Virus record (IMG/VR): IMGVR_UViG_3300029882_000009 | Location: 33,746-97,745 of that record | Direction: 5' to 3' (one strand) | DNA from: a virus | Length of the DNA: 64,000 bases | Shown: positions 451-52,138 of the stretch, in pieces | Layout of the letters: each line of letters starts with the position of its first letter | Position numbering within the stretch: the first letter of the stretch is position 1 | Position numbers and translations under genes: made by a program | Notes under the pieces: generated by a model | Told to the model about the DNA's origin: nothing | Seen by the model: the letters and a program-made list of their open reading frames with translations, nothing else | The model's database searches: none

Positions 451-1357
451 AGGTACGGACAATACAGGTAAAACTACGGTCGCGAAAGCGTTATCTAAGC
501 TCTTACCAGGCTGGAGTTATCGACATCATTCAAAACCACCTATTGACGTCTACACCTATTTCTCTACGTTTCTTGCCGACAGTCATTCAAGAGTAATCGT
601 AGATCGTTTTCATTGGTCAAACTATGCTTACTCTCAGACATACCATGATCAGCCATTAATGAACAAACATCAATGGCGCTGTCTTGAACTTATGTTGATG
701 GCCCAAAATACTCATACTCTCTATATGTACGATGATCCTGAGAACGTTATTGGACGCTGGGGAAGTGGGGAGATGTATGAGGCGAAGGCGGATAAGATTA
801 GGGAGTTAAGCGAACATTATCTTGAACTCTACAAGGGTATTCCCGATGCGGATATTCGATGTACTTTACCTGCTAGCATGTACAACCTTAGAGATTTAAT
901 GGATGAAAACGGAGATCCAACTGAGAAATTAAAGGTTATAGCTATTAACTCCATAACTTCATCGACTGCTGCTTCAAAGTTATTGCCTCCGAGTCTTGGT
1001 ATGGGCGCGGTTGGTGGTTTCATGGTCATTGGTGATACTCCATTATGGCCAGCGGATGATGATAAACGTCCCCAAGTTCCGTGGAATTATGATGGTTGGT
1101 TATGGCAAGCTATAGATGAATATAAAGTCAAATGGTGGAATGGGTATTACACCTATGCCTCAGCGTTTGATAGTAATTATCAGATGGGACATTACATTCA
1201 CAAGGTTATTAAACCAAAAAAGATACTTTACGTAGGTAACGTACCATCCACTGTTTCTTATGTTTCAACATTACACATGCCAATACCTTTCAGCAGCACT
1301 AGATGGGTACCGGACAAATGGAAACTGGAAGTCGGAGAGTTTTTAAATGGGAATTAG
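437..1357 (+). CDS. Thymidylate kinase-like P-loop kinase with a C-terminal UDG-like extension
   Basis: The ATG at 437 is preferred over the upstream ATG at 401 because AAGGAAA lies about 10 nt before it and the P-loop then sits at the N terminus. Residues 6-14 read GTDNTGKTT, a Walker A like that of dTMP kinases. The segment IVDRFHWSNYAYSQ matches the DR(Y/F/H) nucleotide-binding motif of that family. After about residue 150 comes an extension of about 150 residues that is not part of a normal thymidylate kinase. It contains MVIGDTP, then PWNYDGWLWQAI, and later KILYVGNVPS and HMPIPF, an order resembling uracil-DNA-glycosylase folds (GEAPG-like, then a glycine-rich segment, then a final H-P segment). 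The kinase call is firm. The glycosylase-like reading is an inference. The gene overlaps both neighbours, and its place beside dCMP deaminase fits phage dTTP supply. Confidence 0.75.
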   Translation: MLILEGTDNTGKTTVAKALSKLLPGWSYRHHSKPPIDVYTYFSTFLADSHSRVIVDRFHWSNYAYSQTYHDQPLMNKHQWRCLELMLMAQNTHTLYMYDDPENVIGRWGSGEMYEAKADKIRELSEHYLELYKGIPDADIRCTLPASMYNLRDLMDENGDPTEKLKVIAINSITSSTAASKLLPPSLGMGAVGGFMVIGDTPLWPADDDKRPQVPWNYDGWLWQAIDEYKVKWWNGYYTYASAFDSNYQMGHYIHKVIKPKKILYVGNVPSTVSYVSTLHMPIPFSSTRWVPDKWKLEVGEFLNGN

Positions 1358-2717
1358 ATCTGTAGAGTATGACTTCGAAAATTACGCTATCAAAGAAGTT
1401 GTCTCAGATATGGAAGTATCACTGGATATTACGGCCAATTCTTACTACAGTGATAGATTGCGTGGTATGGTATACGATCTGTCAACAAAACTCGCTTCTA
1501 ACAATGTCTTTGAAGAAGTAGTTCATGATCCTGTAGTAAAGAAATATACCAGCCACACAATATCAATACCGTTGACATGGTGGGATCATTTGAAAGACAC
1601 CTATAATGAGTATTGGCGCATGAATATTTTTAAAGTTAGTAAGCGTGAAATAATGGTAGAGAGAGTAATAAACAACTATCACAAACACGTCTATAGAGTT
1701 GTTCATGTTTGTCCTCATTTACCGCTGCGAAAAGATGATTTACATAACTGTATTAATTTCATACAGAAGGATCAATATATGAGTACTATTGTTATATATC
1801 ACAAGGCTGATTTCGATGGTTTGTTTTGCAGGGAAATTGCACATAAGGCACTCGGCGATAAAGACGTTGAGTACATCGGATGGGATTATGGTGACATAGA
1901 GCCTGTGTGTGACAAAGACGACACCATTTATATACTTGACATTAATGTTCCTTCATTGATGGATCATAAAGGTGTAATATGGATAGATCATCACAAGACT
2001 GCCATAGACCGATACGGAAAATTGCCCGGACTGCAAATTGATGGAGTGGCTGCTTGTCGTCTTTGTTGGCAATATTTAATTGAGGGTTCCCGAGAAACTT
2101 TAGTTAAGGAAATGTTTATTGATCGGTTACTTCCTGAGCCTATTGCTGTACGTCTCGCTGGGGAATATGATATTTGGGATAAGAGAGACGAGCGAGCAGA
2201 TACTTTTCAGTTCGGTCTTCGTAGTGTTGATCTTAATTCCAAACCACATGGTTTATATTCATATTGGGATAGACTGCTTGATAACGGTAAATATGCAGCT
2301 TGCACTGTTGACGAACTATTACAAAACGGTAAACTGATTCAAGATTACCAAACCAAACAATATGCTAAAACTATCAAATCATGCGGTTTTACTCTGGATT
2401 GGGAAGGTATCACATTCCTTGCTATAAATACATCAAGAGGATATAATTCTCACCTGTTTACCGCAGCGTTAACAGATGATCATGATGCCTGTCTTGGTTT
2501 TGGATGGGATGGCAATAAATGGTCAATTTCCTTATATGGTGCTCCACATCGACCTGATATTGATCTTTCACAAATCGCTATCAAGTATGGTGGGGGCGGA
2601 CACAAACAGGCTTGTGGTTTTCAATCACGTAATTTACCTTTTGTCTTAATGACCGAACAAGAACGAAAAGTTCAAAAGGAAGTTAACGGTTATGGATGTA
2701 GTGATGGTGGTGGGTAA
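1347..2717 (+). CDS. DHH-family phosphoesterase with an extra N-terminal domain
   Basis: The 456-aa protein has a novel N-terminal part (about 1-144) joined to a DHH phosphoesterase (about 145-430). Visible motifs are HKADFDGLF (metal-binding, motif I type), IDHHKTAID (the DHH motif) and KYGGGGHKQACGF (DHHA1 substrate-binding GGGH). The family comprises RecJ exonucleases and nanoRNA or cyclic-dinucleotide phosphodiesterases. The short spacing and small DHHA1 domain look more like the NrnA/oligoribonuclease side than RecJ. The start at 1347 has GGAGAG upstream. At codon 145 an in-frame ATG (1779) is preceded by AGAAGG at 8-nt spacing exactly where the DHH domain begins, so a shorter second product is possible. 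Confidence 0.85.
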   Translation: MGIRSVEYDFENYAIKEVVSDMEVSLDITANSYYSDRLRGMVYDLSTKLASNNVFEEVVHDPVVKKYTSHTISIPLTWWDHLKDTYNEYWRMNIFKVSKREIMVERVINNYHKHVYRVVHVCPHLPLRKDDLHNCINFIQKDQYMSTIVIYHKADFDGLFCREIAHKALGDKDVEYIGWDYGDIEPVCDKDDTIYILDINVPSLMDHKGVIWIDHHKTAIDRYGKLPGLQIDGVAACRLCWQYLIEGSRETLVKEMFIDRLLPEPIAVRLAGEYDIWDKRDERADTFQFGLRSVDLNSKPHGLYSYWDRLLDNGKYAACTVDELLQNGKLIQDYQTKQYAKTIKSCGFTLDWEGITFLAINTSRGYNSHLFTAALTDDHDACLGFGWDGNKWSISLYGAPHRPDIDLSQIAIKYGGGGHKQACGFQSRNLPFVLMTEQERKVQKEVNGYGCSDGGG

Positions 2718-3187
2718 TGAACAGAATCAGTCTTGACACTCGCTATATGTTGATTGCTCATACCGTAGCTCTTGGTTCTACCTGTTTACGTCGTAAAGTA
2801 GGAGCAGTATTACTTCGCGAAGGTCGTATCATTTCCACAGGTTATAATGGAACACCTTCAGGAAGCCCTCACTGTTCGTCTGACACGTGCGGACCAGGTA
2901 AATCCTGCACAGACACCATTCATGCTGAAATCAACGCTATAACAAGAGCTAGAGAGCAAGGGGATACACTCTATTGTACCGACCAACCTTGTCTACCTTG
3001 TATTAAAGCCATTGTTTCTCATAATTCCAATATTCGTATCTTATATTGGCGTTCCTATGAAGACAAAGTAAGAGATGAATGGTGTCAAAAGATGGGCGTT
3101 GAAATCTATGAAATTGGCTGGGATGACATGATAGATAAATATTCAGCATTAATAGGATTAGGAGAAGATAAATGTGTGACTGTATAA
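2717..3187 (+). CDS. dCMP deaminase
   Basis: Zinc-dependent cytidine/deoxycytidylate deaminase fold: catalytic H69-A-E71 in TIHAEINAI and the second zinc motif PCLPC with C92 and C95. An additional CSSDTCGPGKSC segment precedes the catalytic motif, as in ComEB-type dCMP deaminases, where it forms an extra zinc site. It converts dCMP to dUMP, the feedstock for dTMP, consistent with the thymidylate-kinase-like gene two genes upstream. The start codon overlaps the previous stop as TAATG. The length of 156 aa is normal for the family. Confidence 0.92.
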   Translation: MNRISLDTRYMLIAHTVALGSTCLRRKVGAVLLREGRIISTGYNGTPSGSPHCSSDTCGPGKSCTDTIHAEINAITRAREQGDTLYCTDQPCLPCIKAIVSHNSNIRILYWRSYEDKVRDEWCQKMGVEIYEIGWDDMIDKYSALIGLGEDKCVTV

Positions 3188-3402
3188 CGATGGTGAATGA
3201 AGCGTTAAAACCTACAGGTTTTTCTTTGTGTTGGTCTACTGCCATACCTTCAGAGGGAGGGCAAGCATGGACATTTATTCCTATAAAAACATGGAAACAA
3301 GGTAAAGGATTAAAACTTATTGATGGTCCAGTAATTCAACCTAAATTTTGTTCGTTTTGTGGTAATCCGGTAGGATTGTGTGGGGACGGGGTTGTTGTTT
3401 AG
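3172..3402 (+). CDS. hypothetical small protein with a C-x2-C motif
   Basis: 76 aa, starting inside the end of the deaminase gene with GGAGAAG upstream. It carries FCSFCGNPVG near the C terminus, half of a zinc ribbon, plus C2 and C4 at the N terminus that could supply the remaining ligands. No known family was recognised. The overlap with the deaminase indicates translational coupling. Confidence 0.6.
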   Translation: MCDCITMVNEALKPTGFSLCWSTAIPSEGGQAWTFIPIKTWKQGKGLKLIDGPVIQPKFCSFCGNPVGLCGDGVVV

Positions 3403-3559
3403 AGAAATAATTTATGTCTATCTCTTTTGTGGCTTGACACTTATGGGACTACCATATTGGCTCACTCACATATTTAGTCCTATTAGATTTTTGCTTCTCA
3501 CACTAACATGGCCTTATTGGGTATGGGCATCTATACAGACAGGGAATGATATAGAGTGA
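3380..3559 (+). CDS. small membrane protein, about 59 aa
   Basis: An open frame ends at TGA 3557-3559, overlapping the GTG start of the next gene as GTGA. It encodes two hydrophobic stretches (IIYVYLFCGLTLMGLPYWL and RFLLLTLTWPYWVW). The start is uncertain: GTG 3380 has TAGGA just upstream, and TTG 3392 or 3395 follows GGGGACGGGG. Its function is unknown. The operon-style overlap and clear membrane segments support a real gene. Confidence 0.5.
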   Translation: MGTGLLFREIIYVYLFCGLTLMGLPYWLTHIFSPIRFLLLTLTWPYWVWASIQTGNDIE

Positions 3560-3834
3560 GCACATTGATTGAAAAAGCTGAACTAGCTCGCATTCATTGG
3601 GAATCTATCCCTAAAGGTACGATAGAAAAATACAATGCATGGGATGTGTGGTCCGATGCCTGTAAGCGAAGAGATAGTTGGATAAGTAGATTAACCAACG
3701 CTCGTCTTAAAGTGTGTGAAGCCGCAATATTCTTTAAAGCTAATGTATCATGTCCCCCAGACTTTGAAAATCCTGAAAAGTATCTGATAAAGTTTGTATA
3801 TACACTTGAACTTATTGAAAGTGAAAACACATGA
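3556..3834 (+). CDS. hypothetical protein, 92 aa
   Basis: It begins with GTG overlapping the preceding stop and ends four bases inside the next gene (ATGA). The protein has many Trp and charged residues and may be a mixed helical domain. No motif was recognised. The coupling on both sides is the main evidence for expression. Confidence 0.6.
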   Translation: MSTLIEKAELARIHWESIPKGTIEKYNAWDVWSDACKRRDSWISRLTNARLKVCEAAIFFKANVSCPPDFENPEKYLIKFVYTLELIESENT

Positions 3835-4250
3835 ATGAACGTGAACTTTACCAACCCCTTATAAAAGGTGCTAACGCTGAGGGATGGTTGTTGTGGAGAG
3901 TCAAAGACGGCACTTATGGGAAAAATCCTTTTGATATAAGTGGTGTTGCCCCTGACGGTCGAGCGGTAGGTTTTGAGGTTAAAAAATTAATAAGGATAAG
4001 AGAAGACCAACCTATTGGTTGGTCTGTCTTTGAGTCCCATCAACTTGCCTATCTAAAAGCTTATCAGAAACATGGTGGTCATGCAATCATGGGGTTTTAC
4101 GGAACGTCAGACAATCGTCTTATTCTGGTTCGATATGACGAATTGCGTAACCCTAAAGCTTTACTGGAAACTTATCAGATGGTTGAATTGAAGAAGGATA
4201 AAGAAATTTGGACTGGCTGGTCTAAATATGAAATGTTGGGGAGGCCATAA
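3831..4250 (+). CDS. RecU-like PD-(D/E)XK nuclease (Holliday junction resolvase type)
   Basis: 139 aa. Residues NPFDISGVAPDGRAVGFEVKK provide the PD-(D/E)xK core, with D35 and E49-V-K51. SHQLAYLKAYQKHGG (H70, Q71) matches the helix that follows the core in RecU-like resolvases, where His/Gln and a GG turn are conserved. Such enzymes resolve branched DNA during recombination or before packaging. A VRR-NUC or restriction-like assignment cannot be excluded, because only the core motifs are visible. It is the last gene of the rightward block and converges on the late operon 25 nt away. Confidence 0.75.
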   Translation: MNERELYQPLIKGANAEGWLLWRVKDGTYGKNPFDISGVAPDGRAVGFEVKKLIRIREDQPIGWSVFESHQLAYLKAYQKHGGHAIMGFYGTSDNRLILVRYDELRNPKALLETYQMVELKKDKEIWTGWSKYEMLGRP

Positions 4251-4274
4251 CTTCATCCATTTGTCTTAGTTCCT

Positions 4275-5009
4275 CTACTGGCAAGTCCCTGCAGCGAGAC
4301 TGTAGACCTGATTAACAACATATGAACCCCTCGTCTTCGGCAGCCACTCACACAGTTCCGCAATCTCATACATGCCGGAGCCTAGATTCTGCCCCTGAGC
4401 ATCCTCATGCCAGCAATTATCGAGCGGATCTGTCAGCGTGTCGTCAATCTCAAGACTCAACAATTCCGTCATATATGAGAAATCAGTATAATAATTGACT
4501 GCGATCACGAGCCCCTTGCGGAAGGTTAGCCATGTATGTAGACTACCTGCTGCATACCCGTTGCAAGTAAAAGTAGTTCCAGGTGCGACAAATATGACGT
4601 AGATATCGTTGCCGCCGCCCTGCCTGCCGAAGATCTTGGACAGGATAGAGTTAAGCAGGCCAGTTGGCCCATACGTATTTTGTACAACCGTAGACGCTGG
4701 CCCTACATCCATCGTTGAAGCGGTGGCTACGTTGATCGATGATGAGTATGCGCCGAGTGCACCTGAATCGTACTGCAGAATTACCGGGTCCGGGCTGGAC
4801 GCGATATACTTAACAAACTGAGTAAGTGCGGACTGTGTTGCCGATGGGTAGGCTCCCATGAAAATCAAATGGTATTGCGGGTTACTGATCGTGACGCCGC
4901 CGTAGTTCTGGAACCCGGACGGGCTGATTGGGCCGACGATTGTCTGTGCAAACGACGGGCCGGAGAGCAGGAGTGATAGACACATAAGTGCCCAAAGTCT
5001 AGTTTTCAT
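4275..5009 (-). CDS. Secreted EXORDIUM/metallopeptidase-like protein with altered zinc motif
   Basis: The N terminus is a clear Sec signal peptide (MKTRLWALMCLSLLLSGPSFA then Q). The mature part resembles bacterial proteins related to plant EXORDIUM, which end in a metal site of the form SHExxEAxTDP followed by YEIxDxC. Here the corresponding text is SLEIDDTLTDP and MYEIAELCEW, so the first zinc-binding His is replaced by Leu. An active peptidase is therefore doubtful and a binding role may remain. The G+C content looks higher than in the early genes. It is the most promoter-distal gene of the late block, downstream of the lysis genes, where phages often keep accessory genes. The family assignment is from memory of the motif. 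Confidence 0.55.
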   Translation of the reverse strand: MKTRLWALMCLSLLLSGPSFAQTIVGPISPSGFQNYGGVTISNPQYHLIFMGAYPSATQSALTQFVKYIASSPDPVILQYDSGALGAYSSSINVATASTMDVGPASTVVQNTYGPTGLLNSILSKIFGRQGGGNDIYVIFVAPGTTFTCNGYAAGSLHTWLTFRKGLVIAVNYYTDFSYMTELLSLEIDDTLTDPLDNCWHEDAQGQNLGSGMYEIAELCEWLPKTRGSYVVNQVYSLAAGTCQ

Positions 5010-6248: not shown

Positions 6249-6791
6249 CTATCCCTGAATGTCGGTGGCAGTCTTCAGGGCGTCAAGGCGATTAATCCAG
6301 CCTCGTAAAAATTGTTCATCGTGCGGGTAATGTGTGGCCAGGTACTCGTAGAACTGGACGCGCGCATTGATGTCAGCGAGCGCTAGGTTCGCCGGGTGTT
6401 GCGTGTTGTGAATAGCGTCACTTAAAGCTTGTGACCATTCCTCGCTCGTTGCAGATGTGTTGAAAATCTGGTTAAGTGTCAGGATTGCACGCCCAATGCC
6501 TTCGTTTACGCTACAGTCGAAGGTCACGATATCGAGCGGGACCGGCAGTCCTTCGCAGTGACACGGGGACCAATACCGCGTACTGTAGATGTCCTCTACT
6601 TCTGTCTGTGTAATGAGCCGCACGTCCTGCGTTGGTTCACCCTTAGATTTCCGGTAGGCGTCATAGTCTATGTGGGTTATCCCGAAGTTGGTTGCGCCTC
6701 CGTTGTCGCCAGGATCATCTGTATAGCCGCCCTCAGCTTGCAGGACGAATGCGAGAGATATTTGGAAACGGGTTTTTGTCGTTGTGGTCAT
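6249..6791 (-). CDS. Endolysin, GH108 N-acetylmuramidase
   Basis: 180 aa. The N-terminal motif EGGYTDDPGDNGGATNFGIT, with catalytic E20, is diagnostic of glycoside hydrolase family 108. A C-terminal peptidoglycan-binding-like helical part follows (LRGWINRLDAL). It cleaves the glycan backbone of peptidoglycan at lysis. There is no signal peptide or N-terminal membrane helix, so it would need a holin, and the 31-aa membrane protein directly downstream is a candidate. The start overlaps the stop of the intein-containing gene by four bases. The length is normal for this family in Gram-negative phages. Confidence 0.9.
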   Translation of the reverse strand: MTTTTKTRFQISLAFVLQAEGGYTDDPGDNGGATNFGITHIDYDAYRKSKGEPTQDVRLITQTEVEDIYSTRYWSPCHCEGLPVPLDIVTFDCSVNEGIGRAILTLNQIFNTSATSEEWSQALSDAIHNTQHPANLALADINARVQFYEYLATHYPHDEQFLRGWINRLDALKTATDIQG

Positions 6792-7984
6792 TCCTGATGC
6801 TGGCTTTCTATATCACCGATACTTGCACCACTTGCTGGCATGACAATTGCATCTGTCTCAGTATCCGCTTTCCAGAAACGTTGTGGTTGCCATAAAGGAT
6901 ATGGAAGTAAATGAATACCACGTAATCCTATATGGTGAAGACGACAATTATGTACAGCCAATCCACCACCAATATAACTGTTACAACCTGACACCTCTAT
7001 GTGGTATACTAAACCACTATGGAACTTTCTACTAATTTGCCGAGGCGCTGCCCACCGTGCCTTGAGGGCCGGAATATTAGATACGATATCAACATTTGTC
7101 GTATCTGTGAAGGGCAATTCACCGTGCCTCACAAAGTCGCCAGTAAATACACCACTTGTAGTTCCGTCTGTGAATCTTCGCGTAGAAGTATTGACAAACT
7201 GATTTATCCCAAACAAAGAATTTGCCCGATTTGTAACATGTCTTTCATTCGAGGGAAAGGAGGTCATCAATCGTTTTGCTCCAACTATGGAATTAAAACC
7301 GATAACAGAATCGAGAATCTCCAAATCTTCGAAACTAATTCCGACCACCTCAAGCACGAACATAGAATCGGTAAGTTCGACAACCGGCCTCCACGTCCCA
7401 GAAACGAGAAAGGGATGTTCGTTAGTGGCACCATATCCATTGACAATATTGATATACTCACTAACATACCGACTTCCAGTACCAGTGACTAAATGAGGGT
7501 TTAGGTCGTGTCCCACAACTTCATCACCGATACTAATTTCACTTATTGGCTTTTGGTCGCCATCAGCCATCAACACAGGGGTGTCTCCGGTTTGGCAAAG
7601 TACAGTTAGATTCCCTTCACCTTCTATGAACTCCAAAAATTGTTCATCAGATGTAAGACCGAACTCGGGATATAGTTCTTCGAACTTTGAAATATCCACA
7701 CCTTCTTGTAGTGAATATTCAACTAAAGAATGGTGTAATTCAAGATCCCCAGCGCACTCATGATTTCCAACCCAGCACTTCATCTTACCAAGTTTGGTAA
7801 GACGTGCTTTGGCTTGGTTAAAATATTTGTAGTGAGGATCTCCAACACGTGGAGGATGTTCAGGTACAGCTTCACGAATATGAATGGTCGTGCTTTGATA
7901 ATGAGCGGCAGTGACAGTACTGACATTTGTTGCAGTATTGGTCACTGTTTGCTTAACATCGACTGTCTCTGTAACATCTGCCAT
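6788..7984 (-). CDS. HNH-like phage protein interrupted by an intein
   Basis: The precursor is 398 aa. The flanks (1-129 and 347-398) form a phage HNH-type protein: CWVGNHECAGDLELHHSLVE supplies the first His pair (H84, H85) and the segment after splicing reads NLTVLCRLHHIGLRGIH. The insert between L129 and C347 has all splicing blocks of an intein and splits the second His-rich motif, so the HNH protein is only whole after splicing. Related small HNH proteins of phages (LEL-HH then ENL-LC-xHH-GG-H) are known. Their role is uncertain and may be packaging-associated nicking. The gene lies between a 131-aa gene and the endolysin, with start and stop abutting neighbours. Confidence 0.85.
   Translation of the reverse strand: MADVTETVDVKQTVTNTATNVSTVTAAHYQSTTIHIREAVPEHPPRVGDPHYKYFNQAKARLTKLGKMKCWVGNHECAGDLELHHSLVEYSLQEGVDISKFEELYPEFGLTSDEQFLEFIEGEGNLTVLCQTGDTPVLMADGDQKPISEISIGDEVVGHDLNPHLVTGTGSRYVSEYINIVNGYGATNEHPFLVSGTWRPVVELTDSMFVLEVVGISFEDLEILDSVIGFNSIVGAKRLMTSFPSNERHVTNRANSLFGINQFVNTSTRRFTDGTTSGVFTGDFVRHGELPFTDTTNVDIVSNIPALKARWAAPRQISRKFHSGLVYHIEVSGCNSYIGGGLAVHNCRLHHIGLRGIHLLPYPLWQPQRFWKADTETDAIVMPASGASIGDIESQHQE
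6947..7597 (-). other. Intein (217 aa) within the HNH-like protein
   Basis: Precursor residues 130-346. Block A is CQTGDTPVLMADG...ISIGDEVVGHD, with C130 as the first nucleophile. Block B is GATNEHPFLVSGTWRP, with the T187-x-x-H190 motif. Blocks F and G are VYHIEVSGCNSYIGG and GLAVHN, with penultimate H345, terminal N346 and +1 C347. All residues needed for standard class 1 splicing are present. A minimal intein needs about 130-150 residues, so 60 or more extra residues separate blocks B and F. They match no LAGLIDADG or HNH endonuclease in this frame. The same DNA read on the other strand encodes an HNH-like protein. Confidence 0.9.
7019..7492 (+). pseudogene. Antisense zinc-ribbon/HNH homing-endonuclease-like ORF inside the intein
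   Basis: A 157-codon frame on the strand opposite the intein. It has CPPC (C11, C14), a full ribbon CRICEGQFTVP...TTCSSVC (C27, C30, C47, C51) and a partial one, CPICNMSF...SFCS (C69, C72, C87). An HNH C-terminal half follows: GIKTDNRIENLQIFETNSD then HLKHEHRIGK (N96, N100, H110). This order of Cys ribbons and NRIENL-x-H is typical of phage HNH homing endonucleases. The expected first His pair before NGxKTDNR is missing (FCSNYG stands where VHHING would be), so it looks deleted and inactive. There is no ribosome site before ATG 7019. It may be a relic whose reverse strand now serves as intein linker. Confidence 0.7.
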
Positions 7985-50744: not shown

Positions 50745-50870
50745 ATGGACGCTAAAATGAAAACTGGAACCTTATATATTCTAGAATATATAACACTAAG
50801 AACGTTTGAAATAACATGTAACAATATTGTTTTTGTAGATTACATATTGATAAAATCACACCAATTATAA
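50745..50870 (+). CDS. possible 41-aa protein
   Basis: Open frame MDAKMKTGTLYILEYITLRT... ending before the ribosome site of the pentapeptide gene. No clear ribosome site precedes it. It fills an otherwise empty 180-nt gap after hairpin copy 3. Weakly supported. Confidence 0.25.
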   Translation: MDAKMKTGTLYILEYITLRTFEITCNNIVFVDYILIKSHQL

Positions 50871-50884
50871 AGGAGAATACGAAT

Positions 50885-52138
50885 ATGAACATGACAACTG
50901 AAGAATTGGCACTAAAACTAACACTGCATCTAAAATGGCTAAATGGCGATTGTGATGGAGTTAGGCTTAATCTACGCAATGCCGATCTAAACAATGCCAA
51001 TCTACGCTTTGCCGATCTAAACAATGCCGATCTACGCAATGCCGATCTACGCTTTGCCGATCTAAACAATGCCGATCTACGCAATGCCGATCTAAACAAT
51101 GCCGATCTACGCTTTGCCGATCTAAACAATGCCGATCTAAGCAATGCCGATCTACGCTTTGCCTATCTAAGCAATGCCGATCTAAACAATGCCAATCTAA
51201 GCAATGCCGATCTAAGCAATGCCGATCTAAGCAATGCCGATCTAAGCAATGCCGATCTAAGCAATGCCGATCTACGCAATGCCATAACTACAGATACTAT
51301 TCTGGGGGTTAAGGAGGAAGTTAAAATATTAATGAATTCTAAAAATCGAACATTTGGTATCGAGATCGAAATTAACGATCTTGATGAATATGAAGCAGCG
51401 GATGTTTTGCAGTTTGCTGGCATTAACGCCAAAAAAGAAGACTATAATCACAAACTTCGCACACACTGGAAATGTACAACCGATTCAACGGTTGATGGAT
51501 GTGAAGTGGTATCGCCTCCTCTGACAATTGATAATATAGAAGAGGTACGTACTGTAATATCGGCATTGGAGAATGCTGGTGCCACTGTCAATTACAAATG
51601 TGGTTTACATGTCCATTGGGCAGCATCTGACTTGACACTTCTACAATTTAAAAGAATATGTAAAGGTTATATTAGAGCACAGCCCCTTGTGAATATCTTG
51701 CTAGAGCCACCACGACGAATGAATCGTAACAGTTATCTACATGACAACCCTCCTGATTTTTGCGATATTGATAGAGCCGAAAGTCAATCAGATTTGTCAT
51801 ATATTGTATGTTGTAACGATAGATACCGCAAATTAAATCTCGAGTCTTTACAGGTGCATGGAACCATTGAATTCCGTGCATATCATGGGACATTGGATGC
51901 ACAAGAAGTGATTGACTGGATTTATTTAACTAAATCTATAGTCGAACATTCGATATCGCAATCCAATATCAAACCACTGGATACTCTTCTGGCCAAACTT
52001 GGAGAACGATCAACACTTCACACTTGGCTATCGCCTCAGTATTTAGGGCTTGATAAAAATATGCAATCTCGTTTTATGCAAAGGTATGAAGATTTGAAAA
52101 TAATGGAGGCTGAATATTGTTCAAGATCAAGGTGGTAG
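50885..52138 (+). CDS. Pentapeptide-repeat / amidoligase fusion
   Basis: 417 aa. Residues about 27-135 are about 21 tandem pentapeptide repeats (A(D/N)L(N/R/S)(N/F)), encoded by nearly identical 15-nt units, a sign of recent expansion. From about 150 the protein is an amidoligase of the COOH-NH2 ligase family: FGIEIEINDLDEYEAADVLQ, DGCEVVSPPLTI, KCGLHVHW and IEFRAYHGTLDAQEVIDWIY, with Glu and His/Arg residues of an ATP-grasp/glutamine-synthetase-like site. These enzymes join amines to carboxylates and in known operons pair with gamma-glutamylcyclotransferases, as here. The N-terminal beta-helix may bind the substrate or mimic DNA. Confidence 0.85.
   Translation: MNMTTEELALKLTLHLKWLNGDCDGVRLNLRNADLNNANLRFADLNNADLRNADLRFADLNNADLRNADLNNADLRFADLNNADLSNADLRFAYLSNADLNNANLSNADLSNADLSNADLSNADLSNADLRNAITTDTILGVKEEVKILMNSKNRTFGIEIEINDLDEYEAADVLQFAGINAKKEDYNHKLRTHWKCTTDSTVDGCEVVSPPLTIDNIEEVRTVISALENAGATVNYKCGLHVHWAASDLTLLQFKRICKGYIRAQPLVNILLEPPRRMNRNSYLHDNPPDFCDIDRAESQSDLSYIVCCNDRYRKLNLESLQVHGTIEFRAYHGTLDAQEVIDWIYLTKSIVEHSISQSNIKPLDTLLAKLGERSTLHTWLSPQYLGLDKNMQSRFMQRYEDLKIMEAEYCSRSRW

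Follow-up and report, generated by a model that had tools for sequence, protein, structure and literature searches.

Inteins are usually described as one polypeptide that carries both splicing and endonuclease domains, and any that lack an in-frame endonuclease are classed as mini-inteins that are immobile. In canonical large inteins (PI-SceI and others), the Hint splicing domain and the homing endonuclease form one unit, with the endonuclease fused in frame. Homing endonuclease genes also occur on the opposite strand of group I introns. These introns, too, hold an antisense endonuclease gene within a self-removing element, but they are removed at the RNA level and their sense strand need not stay open, whereas the sense frame of an intein must be stop-free. 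In the ShiLan type, described by Arsenault, Gosselin and Gogarten in 2025 (PMC11855218), a phage DNA methylase conceals an HNH endonuclease that is out of frame; there, a zinc-finger HNH gene overlaps the reading frame of its host gene and is thought to home. The words antisense, reverse and opposite are absent from that paper, which cites a 2025 preprint by Gosselin et al. on actinobacteriophage inteins of 'non-canonical architecture'. The title of the preprint, and its citation for overlapping frames, suggest that it deals with out-of-frame endonucleases in inteins. Collaborative homing between endonucleases and introns has been reviewed for introns (PMC2988022). Our literature search, outside which lay the Gosselin et al. 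2025 preprint and Gorbalenya 1998, found nothing on antisense endonucleases in inteins. The same-strand out-of-frame HNH insertion is already published (PMC11855218); the antisense version in inteins may be new, subject to the 2025 preprint.

We analysed a 64,000-nucleotide stretch of virus DNA (the window) that holds an HNH-like gene overlapping an intein. Like the ShiLan type, it combines the frame of an HNH gene that has zinc fingers with the frame of another gene. In the ShiLan type, however, the two frames share one strand and a splicing domain was not found, whereas in the window they lie on opposite strands and the overlapped element is a recognisable intein with a Hint domain. The minus strand contains the following features.

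6788..7984, minus strand: host gene (extein) from the ORF list, encoding a phage HNH-family protein interrupted by an intein, 398-aa precursor.
6947..7597, minus strand: intein of 217 aa (CQTGDTPVLMADG...GGLAVHN), Pfam Hom_end_hint 4.5e-8.
7373..7597, minus strand: N-terminal splicing half of the Hint domain, intein aa 1-75, with block B TNEH; ordered in the model, block pLDDT 57-96.
7019..7372, minus strand: intein linker, aa 76-193, opposite the HNH-homologous part; predicted to be disordered, block pLDDT 30-44.
6947..7018, minus strand: C-terminal splicing half of the Hint domain, intein aa 194-217, with the VHN end before Cys; block pLDDT about 69-90.

The sequence hallmarks of an intein are present (C1, block B TNEH and VHN^C, in frame in the host gene), and we take 6947-7597 to be an intein, a Hint element predicted to splice. 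Its insertion junctions read GNLTVL^C...N^CRLHH, which places it before the Cys of GNL..LC..HH; the empty site in an inteinless host homologue (L019) reads GNLEVLCAAHH, uninterrupted. Both the spliced extein (E=6e-6) and L019 (E=2e-6) matched the profile phrog_8048, an HNH endonuclease. Searching the PDB with an AlphaFold2 model of the intein returned the intein structures 6riy/6rix with a probability of 1.00, and the other matches were inteins or Hint relatives. In this model, residues 78-161 and 169-193 had a pLDDT below 50 and both Hint halves were ordered. A profile search found no in-frame LAGLIDADG endonuclease in the 217-aa intein, and the model shows its linker as disordered, so it is not a LAGLIDADG large intein. 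Searches for close relatives of the intein turned up only the inteinless host homologue and distant inteins, and plasmid blastn with the intein DNA gave no match.

Opposite codons 37-193 of this intein, the plus strand encodes an ORF of 157 aa. The earlier note, which was made from the sequence of the window, had described this ORF as antisense to the intein linker, and we reproduced its coordinates and overlap. Its features are as follows.

7019..7492, plus strand: antisense ORF, 157 aa, most likely the relic of a zinc-ribbon HNH homing endonuclease gene, in phase 0 (in register with the intein codons); profile matches and recoding test.
7002..7010, plus strand: extended -10-like TGGTATACT just before ATG 7019, read from the sequence; a possible promoter remnant, on weak evidence.
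7088..7180, plus strand: zinc ribbon 1, aa 24-54, complete (C27, C30, C47 and C51); phrog_3794 E=1.9e-3.
7217..7285, plus strand: zinc ribbon 2, aa 67-89, incomplete (C69, C72 and C87), the fourth Cys apparently lost with a missing segment; profile alignment.
7283..7291, plus strand: putative deletion junction joining CSN to YGIK; profile jump and alignments with intact homologues.
7289..7369, plus strand: HNH C-terminal half, aa 91-117, GIKTDNRIENLQIFETNSDHLKHEHRI; phrog_30377 E=7.6e-4 and 66% identity to the L001 HNH protein.

An HNH C-terminal half, which the earlier note had read from the letters, was recovered by profile search (phrog_30377 'HNH endonuclease', E=7.6e-4 at aa 90-119); that note had named the lack of any HNH or zinc-ribbon match on the plus strand as grounds against its reading, and profiles of both kinds matched. 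A DZR_2 match was weak (E=5.5e-3, best stretch aa 7-35, under Pfam's cut-off) and no Pfam HNH match was obtained for the ORF. Over 35 aa, the HNH tail is 66% and 60% identical to two intact phage HNH proteins, L001 and L002, respectively. Homology extends from aa 24 to about aa 120, and the last ~37 codons mirror only the Hint-N coding sequence; the HNH-homologous stretch sits opposite the disordered intein linker. The structure model of the ORF had a low overall confidence (pTM 0.31), with a pLDDT of about 84-88 over aa 21-50 (ribbon 1) and about 84-91 over aa 101-120 (HNH tail). Between aa 77 and aa 91, the profile alignment jumps from model position 66 to 142. Intact homologues have ~60 extra residues between the CSN and GIKTDN positions, carrying an EHR..ME..LGR..EVVHH segment, and the window ORF lacks about 60 aa relative to them, including both catalytic His residues as well as the last Cys (the fourth) of ribbon 2. 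This corrects the earlier note, which had named the first His pair alone as lacking. Three viral scans for close relatives of the antisense protein returned HNH-tail matches or nothing, with the same ribbons in none; phage tblastn gave weak tail matches only, and a sequence search of solved structures gave nothing credible.

In GC-rich genes, the phase 0 antisense frame is often open, and an antisense frame might be both open and HNH-like by chance, as is common opposite coding sequence. We recoded the intein stretch synonymously 2,000 times using the virus's own codon usage. The antisense frame was open in 0/2,000 recodings, which contained a mean of 6.3 stops. The real ORF scored 31.1 bits against the HNH profile and 36.8 bits against the zinc-ribbon/HNH profile, compared with 23.3 and 18.3 bits, respectively, for the best decoys. 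Some decoys reached 23 bits because phase 0 preserves the middle codon bases, but none attained the real score. Moreover, the ribbon and HNH-tail segments match in the correct order, and many relatives have an equal arrangement with an intact HNH motif. With every decoy interrupted by stops and below the real score, we rejected a chance shadow ORF, which we consider extremely improbable, and treat the antisense HNH homology as real.

The two best HNH relatives of the window ORF, L001 and L002, are themselves antisense to inteins in large terminases, as is a third, L005. A profile built from these three HNH proteins found at least 588 related viral places, of which we examined the best 80. In 80/80, the HNH gene lay inside a long minus-strand ORF in one relative phase (phase 1), with the minus-strand ORF running off the contig end in a few; ranking by similarity to antisense members favours the phase-1 clade among these best 80 of at least 588. 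The antisense arrangement was not selected for, because the search used the HNH sequence alone. It was also present in bacterial genomes from GTDB (L100 and L101, SNF2-like helicase gene; and L103, strawberry-notch-like gene). Pfam Intein_splicing matched 53/57 non-redundant minus-strand ORFs, HNH_3 matched 58/58 plus-strand HNH proteins of the class, and most host genes of the intact class were terminases. Pectobacterium phage Abuela carries an antisense-HNH intein, and seven close relatives match over most or all of the stretch. These results indicate that the antisense arrangement is common and, elsewhere, apparently functional; judging from such matches, intact HNH copies appear to lie backwards in hundreds of other phage inteins. 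The class is widespread rather than a one-off, with members that are apparently intact and have their own promoter-like and ribosome-binding signals, which the earlier note had missed.

In the Abuela record (L117), the intein-bearing terminase-like gene (571-2835, minus strand) is annotated as 'hypothetical protein', and the antisense HNH gene (1944-2642, plus strand) is unannotated. In Pseudoalteromonas phage PHS3 (L118), the GenBank terminase (652-1827) is too short; the full ORF (655-2778, minus strand) has an intein antisense to an annotated HNH gene. HNH relatives in phiH, Thibault, Vibrio, Providencia and spring phages were rejected as antisense cases, being free-standing or intron-like by annotation, and relatives from these phages served as comparison rows in the HNH tree. 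Filuzino-type methylase matches were likewise set aside, as they lie on the same strand within the methylase, the known ShiLan situation. On a contig of a Nitrospira metagenome-assembled genome (L104), an antisense HNH ORF (2908-3375, plus strand) lies within a DNA methylase gene (1427-4393, minus strand) in which no Hint domain was found, an antisense counterpart of the ShiLan insertion.

In the phase-1 overlap, the wobble base of the HNH gene is the second codon position of the intein. In 38 independent pairs, we counted 1285/990/2083 differences at positions 1/2/3 of the intein codons in the N-terminal flank and 5116/4109/8256 in the C-terminal flank. In the overlap, they numbered 1700/2598/1804 in the same pairs, peaking at the HNH wobble base. 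The closest pairs were the most marked (2/21/2 in the overlap of L062 and L078), and the phage isolates Abuela and Taid differed at 11/4/143 positions in the extein and at 7/12/7 in the overlap. From these codon-position differences, it is the HNH protein that selection mainly sees in the overlap. The earlier note had proposed such a codon-position comparison; run on relatives of the arrangement, it supports HNH coding on the other strand. The intein frame is also maintained. Among 57 non-redundant loci, the intein frame opposite HNH contained 0 stops in 11,673 codons, compared with 368 expected from synonymous recoding of HNH, and the other two frames opposite HNH contained 391 and 595 stops. 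In a control of 25 HNH genes taken as free-standing, we counted 205 stops compared with 217 expected; one of the 25 (PHS3) proved to lie antisense to an intein, which slightly dilutes this control. In the intact class, selection acts on both frames, and the intein frame is kept open.

A Shine–Dalgarno-like motif was present at the first HNH ATG in 32/57 loci, compared with 139/1,974 other same-strand ATGs (p=4e-21). A sigma-70-like site with at least 10/12 matches occurred upstream of HNH in 12/56 loci compared with 1/975 control windows; the promoter-like site of L001, for example, is TTGACA-17-TACAAT with a TG extension. From this double enrichment, the antisense HNH gene apparently has transcription and translation starts of its own, placed opposite the C-terminal half of the intein or the splice junction. 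This sets these loci apart from canonical large inteins, as the endonuclease would be a separate opposite-strand gene with start signals of its own. In the window, no Shine–Dalgarno motif precedes ATG 7019, and a consensus scan found no -35 partner for the -10-like TGGTATACT.

Members of the HNH clade sit at no fewer than two P-loop positions, GNRxGK^C...HHN^T and GNR/Q^C...HHN^SGKT, and are also found in other genes. In the HNH tree, 58 antisense HNH proteins form one supported group, inside which two long-branched free-standing rows are placed with little certainty; L103, L104 and L123 fall outside it. L033 and L045 are neighbours in this tree (100/100), yet lie at different P-loop positions. 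Klebsiella phage terminases with ~67% identity to those of the Pectobacterium phages can be aligned on either side of the insert, which they lack. The arrangement and this patchy distribution point to homing by the antisense HNH protein. We also considered whether the nuclease instead serves the phage, for example in packaging with terminase, and does not mobilise the intein. In its favour, terminases make up most of the host genes, and HNH proteins can assist them, as PMC11855218 discusses. Against it, helicase and strawberry-notch-like genes also carry the arrangement, its P-loop position varies, and related terminases lack the insert altogether. We therefore regard a role in packaging as quite unlikely and favour mobilisation of the intein.

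The window copy differs from these intact genes. As its catalytic His pair is gone, it is most likely a dead relic, and linker codon usage lends this mild support: in the window it gives the intein frame an advantage of 0.15 log units per codon, the reverse of what 47/52 intact loci show. A parallel phase-1 relic was found in a terminase mini-intein of 177 aa (L124, 2867-3397, minus strand), in which ~62 codons of a truncated antisense HNH gene are left. The earlier note had suggested that a backwards endonuclease gene was deleted to keep the intein frame open. The backwards HNH gene in the linker and its deleted, relic-like appearance stand; the proposed motive is not supported, because antisense HNH and a stop-free intein frame coexist in 57/57 non-redundant relatives, and deletion was thus unneeded. 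The ORF might still encode a working protein, a nuclease-dead zinc-ribbon DNA-binder such as a transcription repressor or an aid to a nuclease elsewhere. Ribbon 1 is complete, conservation of the HNH tail is good, all 157 codons of the frame are free of stops, and some intron endonucleases are transcriptional autorepressors (PMC2988022). Ribbon 2, however, has no fourth Cys, there is no Shine–Dalgarno sequence, the linker codon usage favours the intein frame and the structure model has low overall confidence. We consider a working protein unlikely and retain the reading of a relic.

Whether the relic descends from the phase-1 class is a separate question. The window overlap is in phase 0, whereas every retrieved antisense relative is in phase 1. 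The window copy has zinc ribbons and a different Hint type, and what would tie it to the phase-1 class is a 27-aa HNH tail together with zinc ribbons typical of other HNH proteins. As its phase differs from that of all retrieved relatives, the window copy is probably of separate origin, with a zinc-ribbon HNH gene captured independently. A single origin, with the phase of a phase-1 antisense HNH gene changed through paired indels, would account for the 60-66% likeness of the HNH tail to L001 and L002 of that clade. It would need two compensating indels outside the HNH gene followed by ~150 stop-free codons in the new frame, and both the zinc ribbons and the Hint type of the window are unlike those of the phase-1 clade. 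We judge such a shared origin improbable and continue with separate capture.

Taken together, these data lead us to propose, with considerable confidence, a class of mobile inteins in which the homing endonuclease is an HNH gene on the opposite strand over the linker, with the window as a decayed and probably separately captured case. The intein would remove itself from the host protein by splicing, which would make the insertion harmless. A promoter and ribosome-binding site of its own, near the C-terminal half of the intein, would drive expression of the antisense HNH gene, and the nuclease should cut inteinless alleles, causing the whole unit to be copied in. In the window, about 60 aa of the HNH gene, including the catalytic His pair, would have been deleted, leaving DNA that now serves only as intein linker. 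The simplest history would be that a mini-intein captures a free-standing HNH gene, homes and then decays by deletion, probably more than once. Collaborative homing (PMC2988022) offers a likely origin, in which a nuclease gene would join up with a splicing element having the same target site; it was described for introns, whereas the joined product here would be an antisense overlap in an intein. We lean towards the fuller view that antisense-HNH inteins are an unrecognised, widespread mobile class that arose mostly from one event and was assembled more than once, the window being an independent decayed case.

If this is true, many supposed mini-inteins would be mobile and their endonuclease genes would be absent from annotation, as in the Abuela record. 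One stretch of DNA would encode a splicing element on one strand and, likely, the enzyme that spreads it on the other. Antisense-HNH inteins also provide a clear natural example in which two long antisense genes overlap and are both under selection, and they allow isolated phages to be used to test how homing endonucleases arise and decay within splicing elements.

Same-strand overlaps were also encountered. Terminase inteins in Gordonia phage Angelicage (L128, 1305-1838, plus strand) and at L143, L144, L179, L180, L196 and L199 contain same-strand out-of-frame endonuclease VII/HNH-like ORFs; going by the title and citation of the 2025 preprint, inteins such as that of Angelicage may be its subject. 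At L136-L140 and L146, inteins at DRLRGGQWHGAW^C have an HNH and zinc-ribbon ORF in another frame of the same strand (for example, L137, 2731-3432, plus strand). Mini-inteins of ~126 aa at DRLRGGQWHGAW^C in L131-L133 lack the HNH ORF and provide a with/without pair for the same-strand overlap. Elsewhere in the window, an ORF at 50885-52138 (plus strand) begins with pentapeptide-like N-A-D-L repeats followed by a different domain, and a repetitive antisense ORF (50752-51144, minus strand) lies opposite these repeats.
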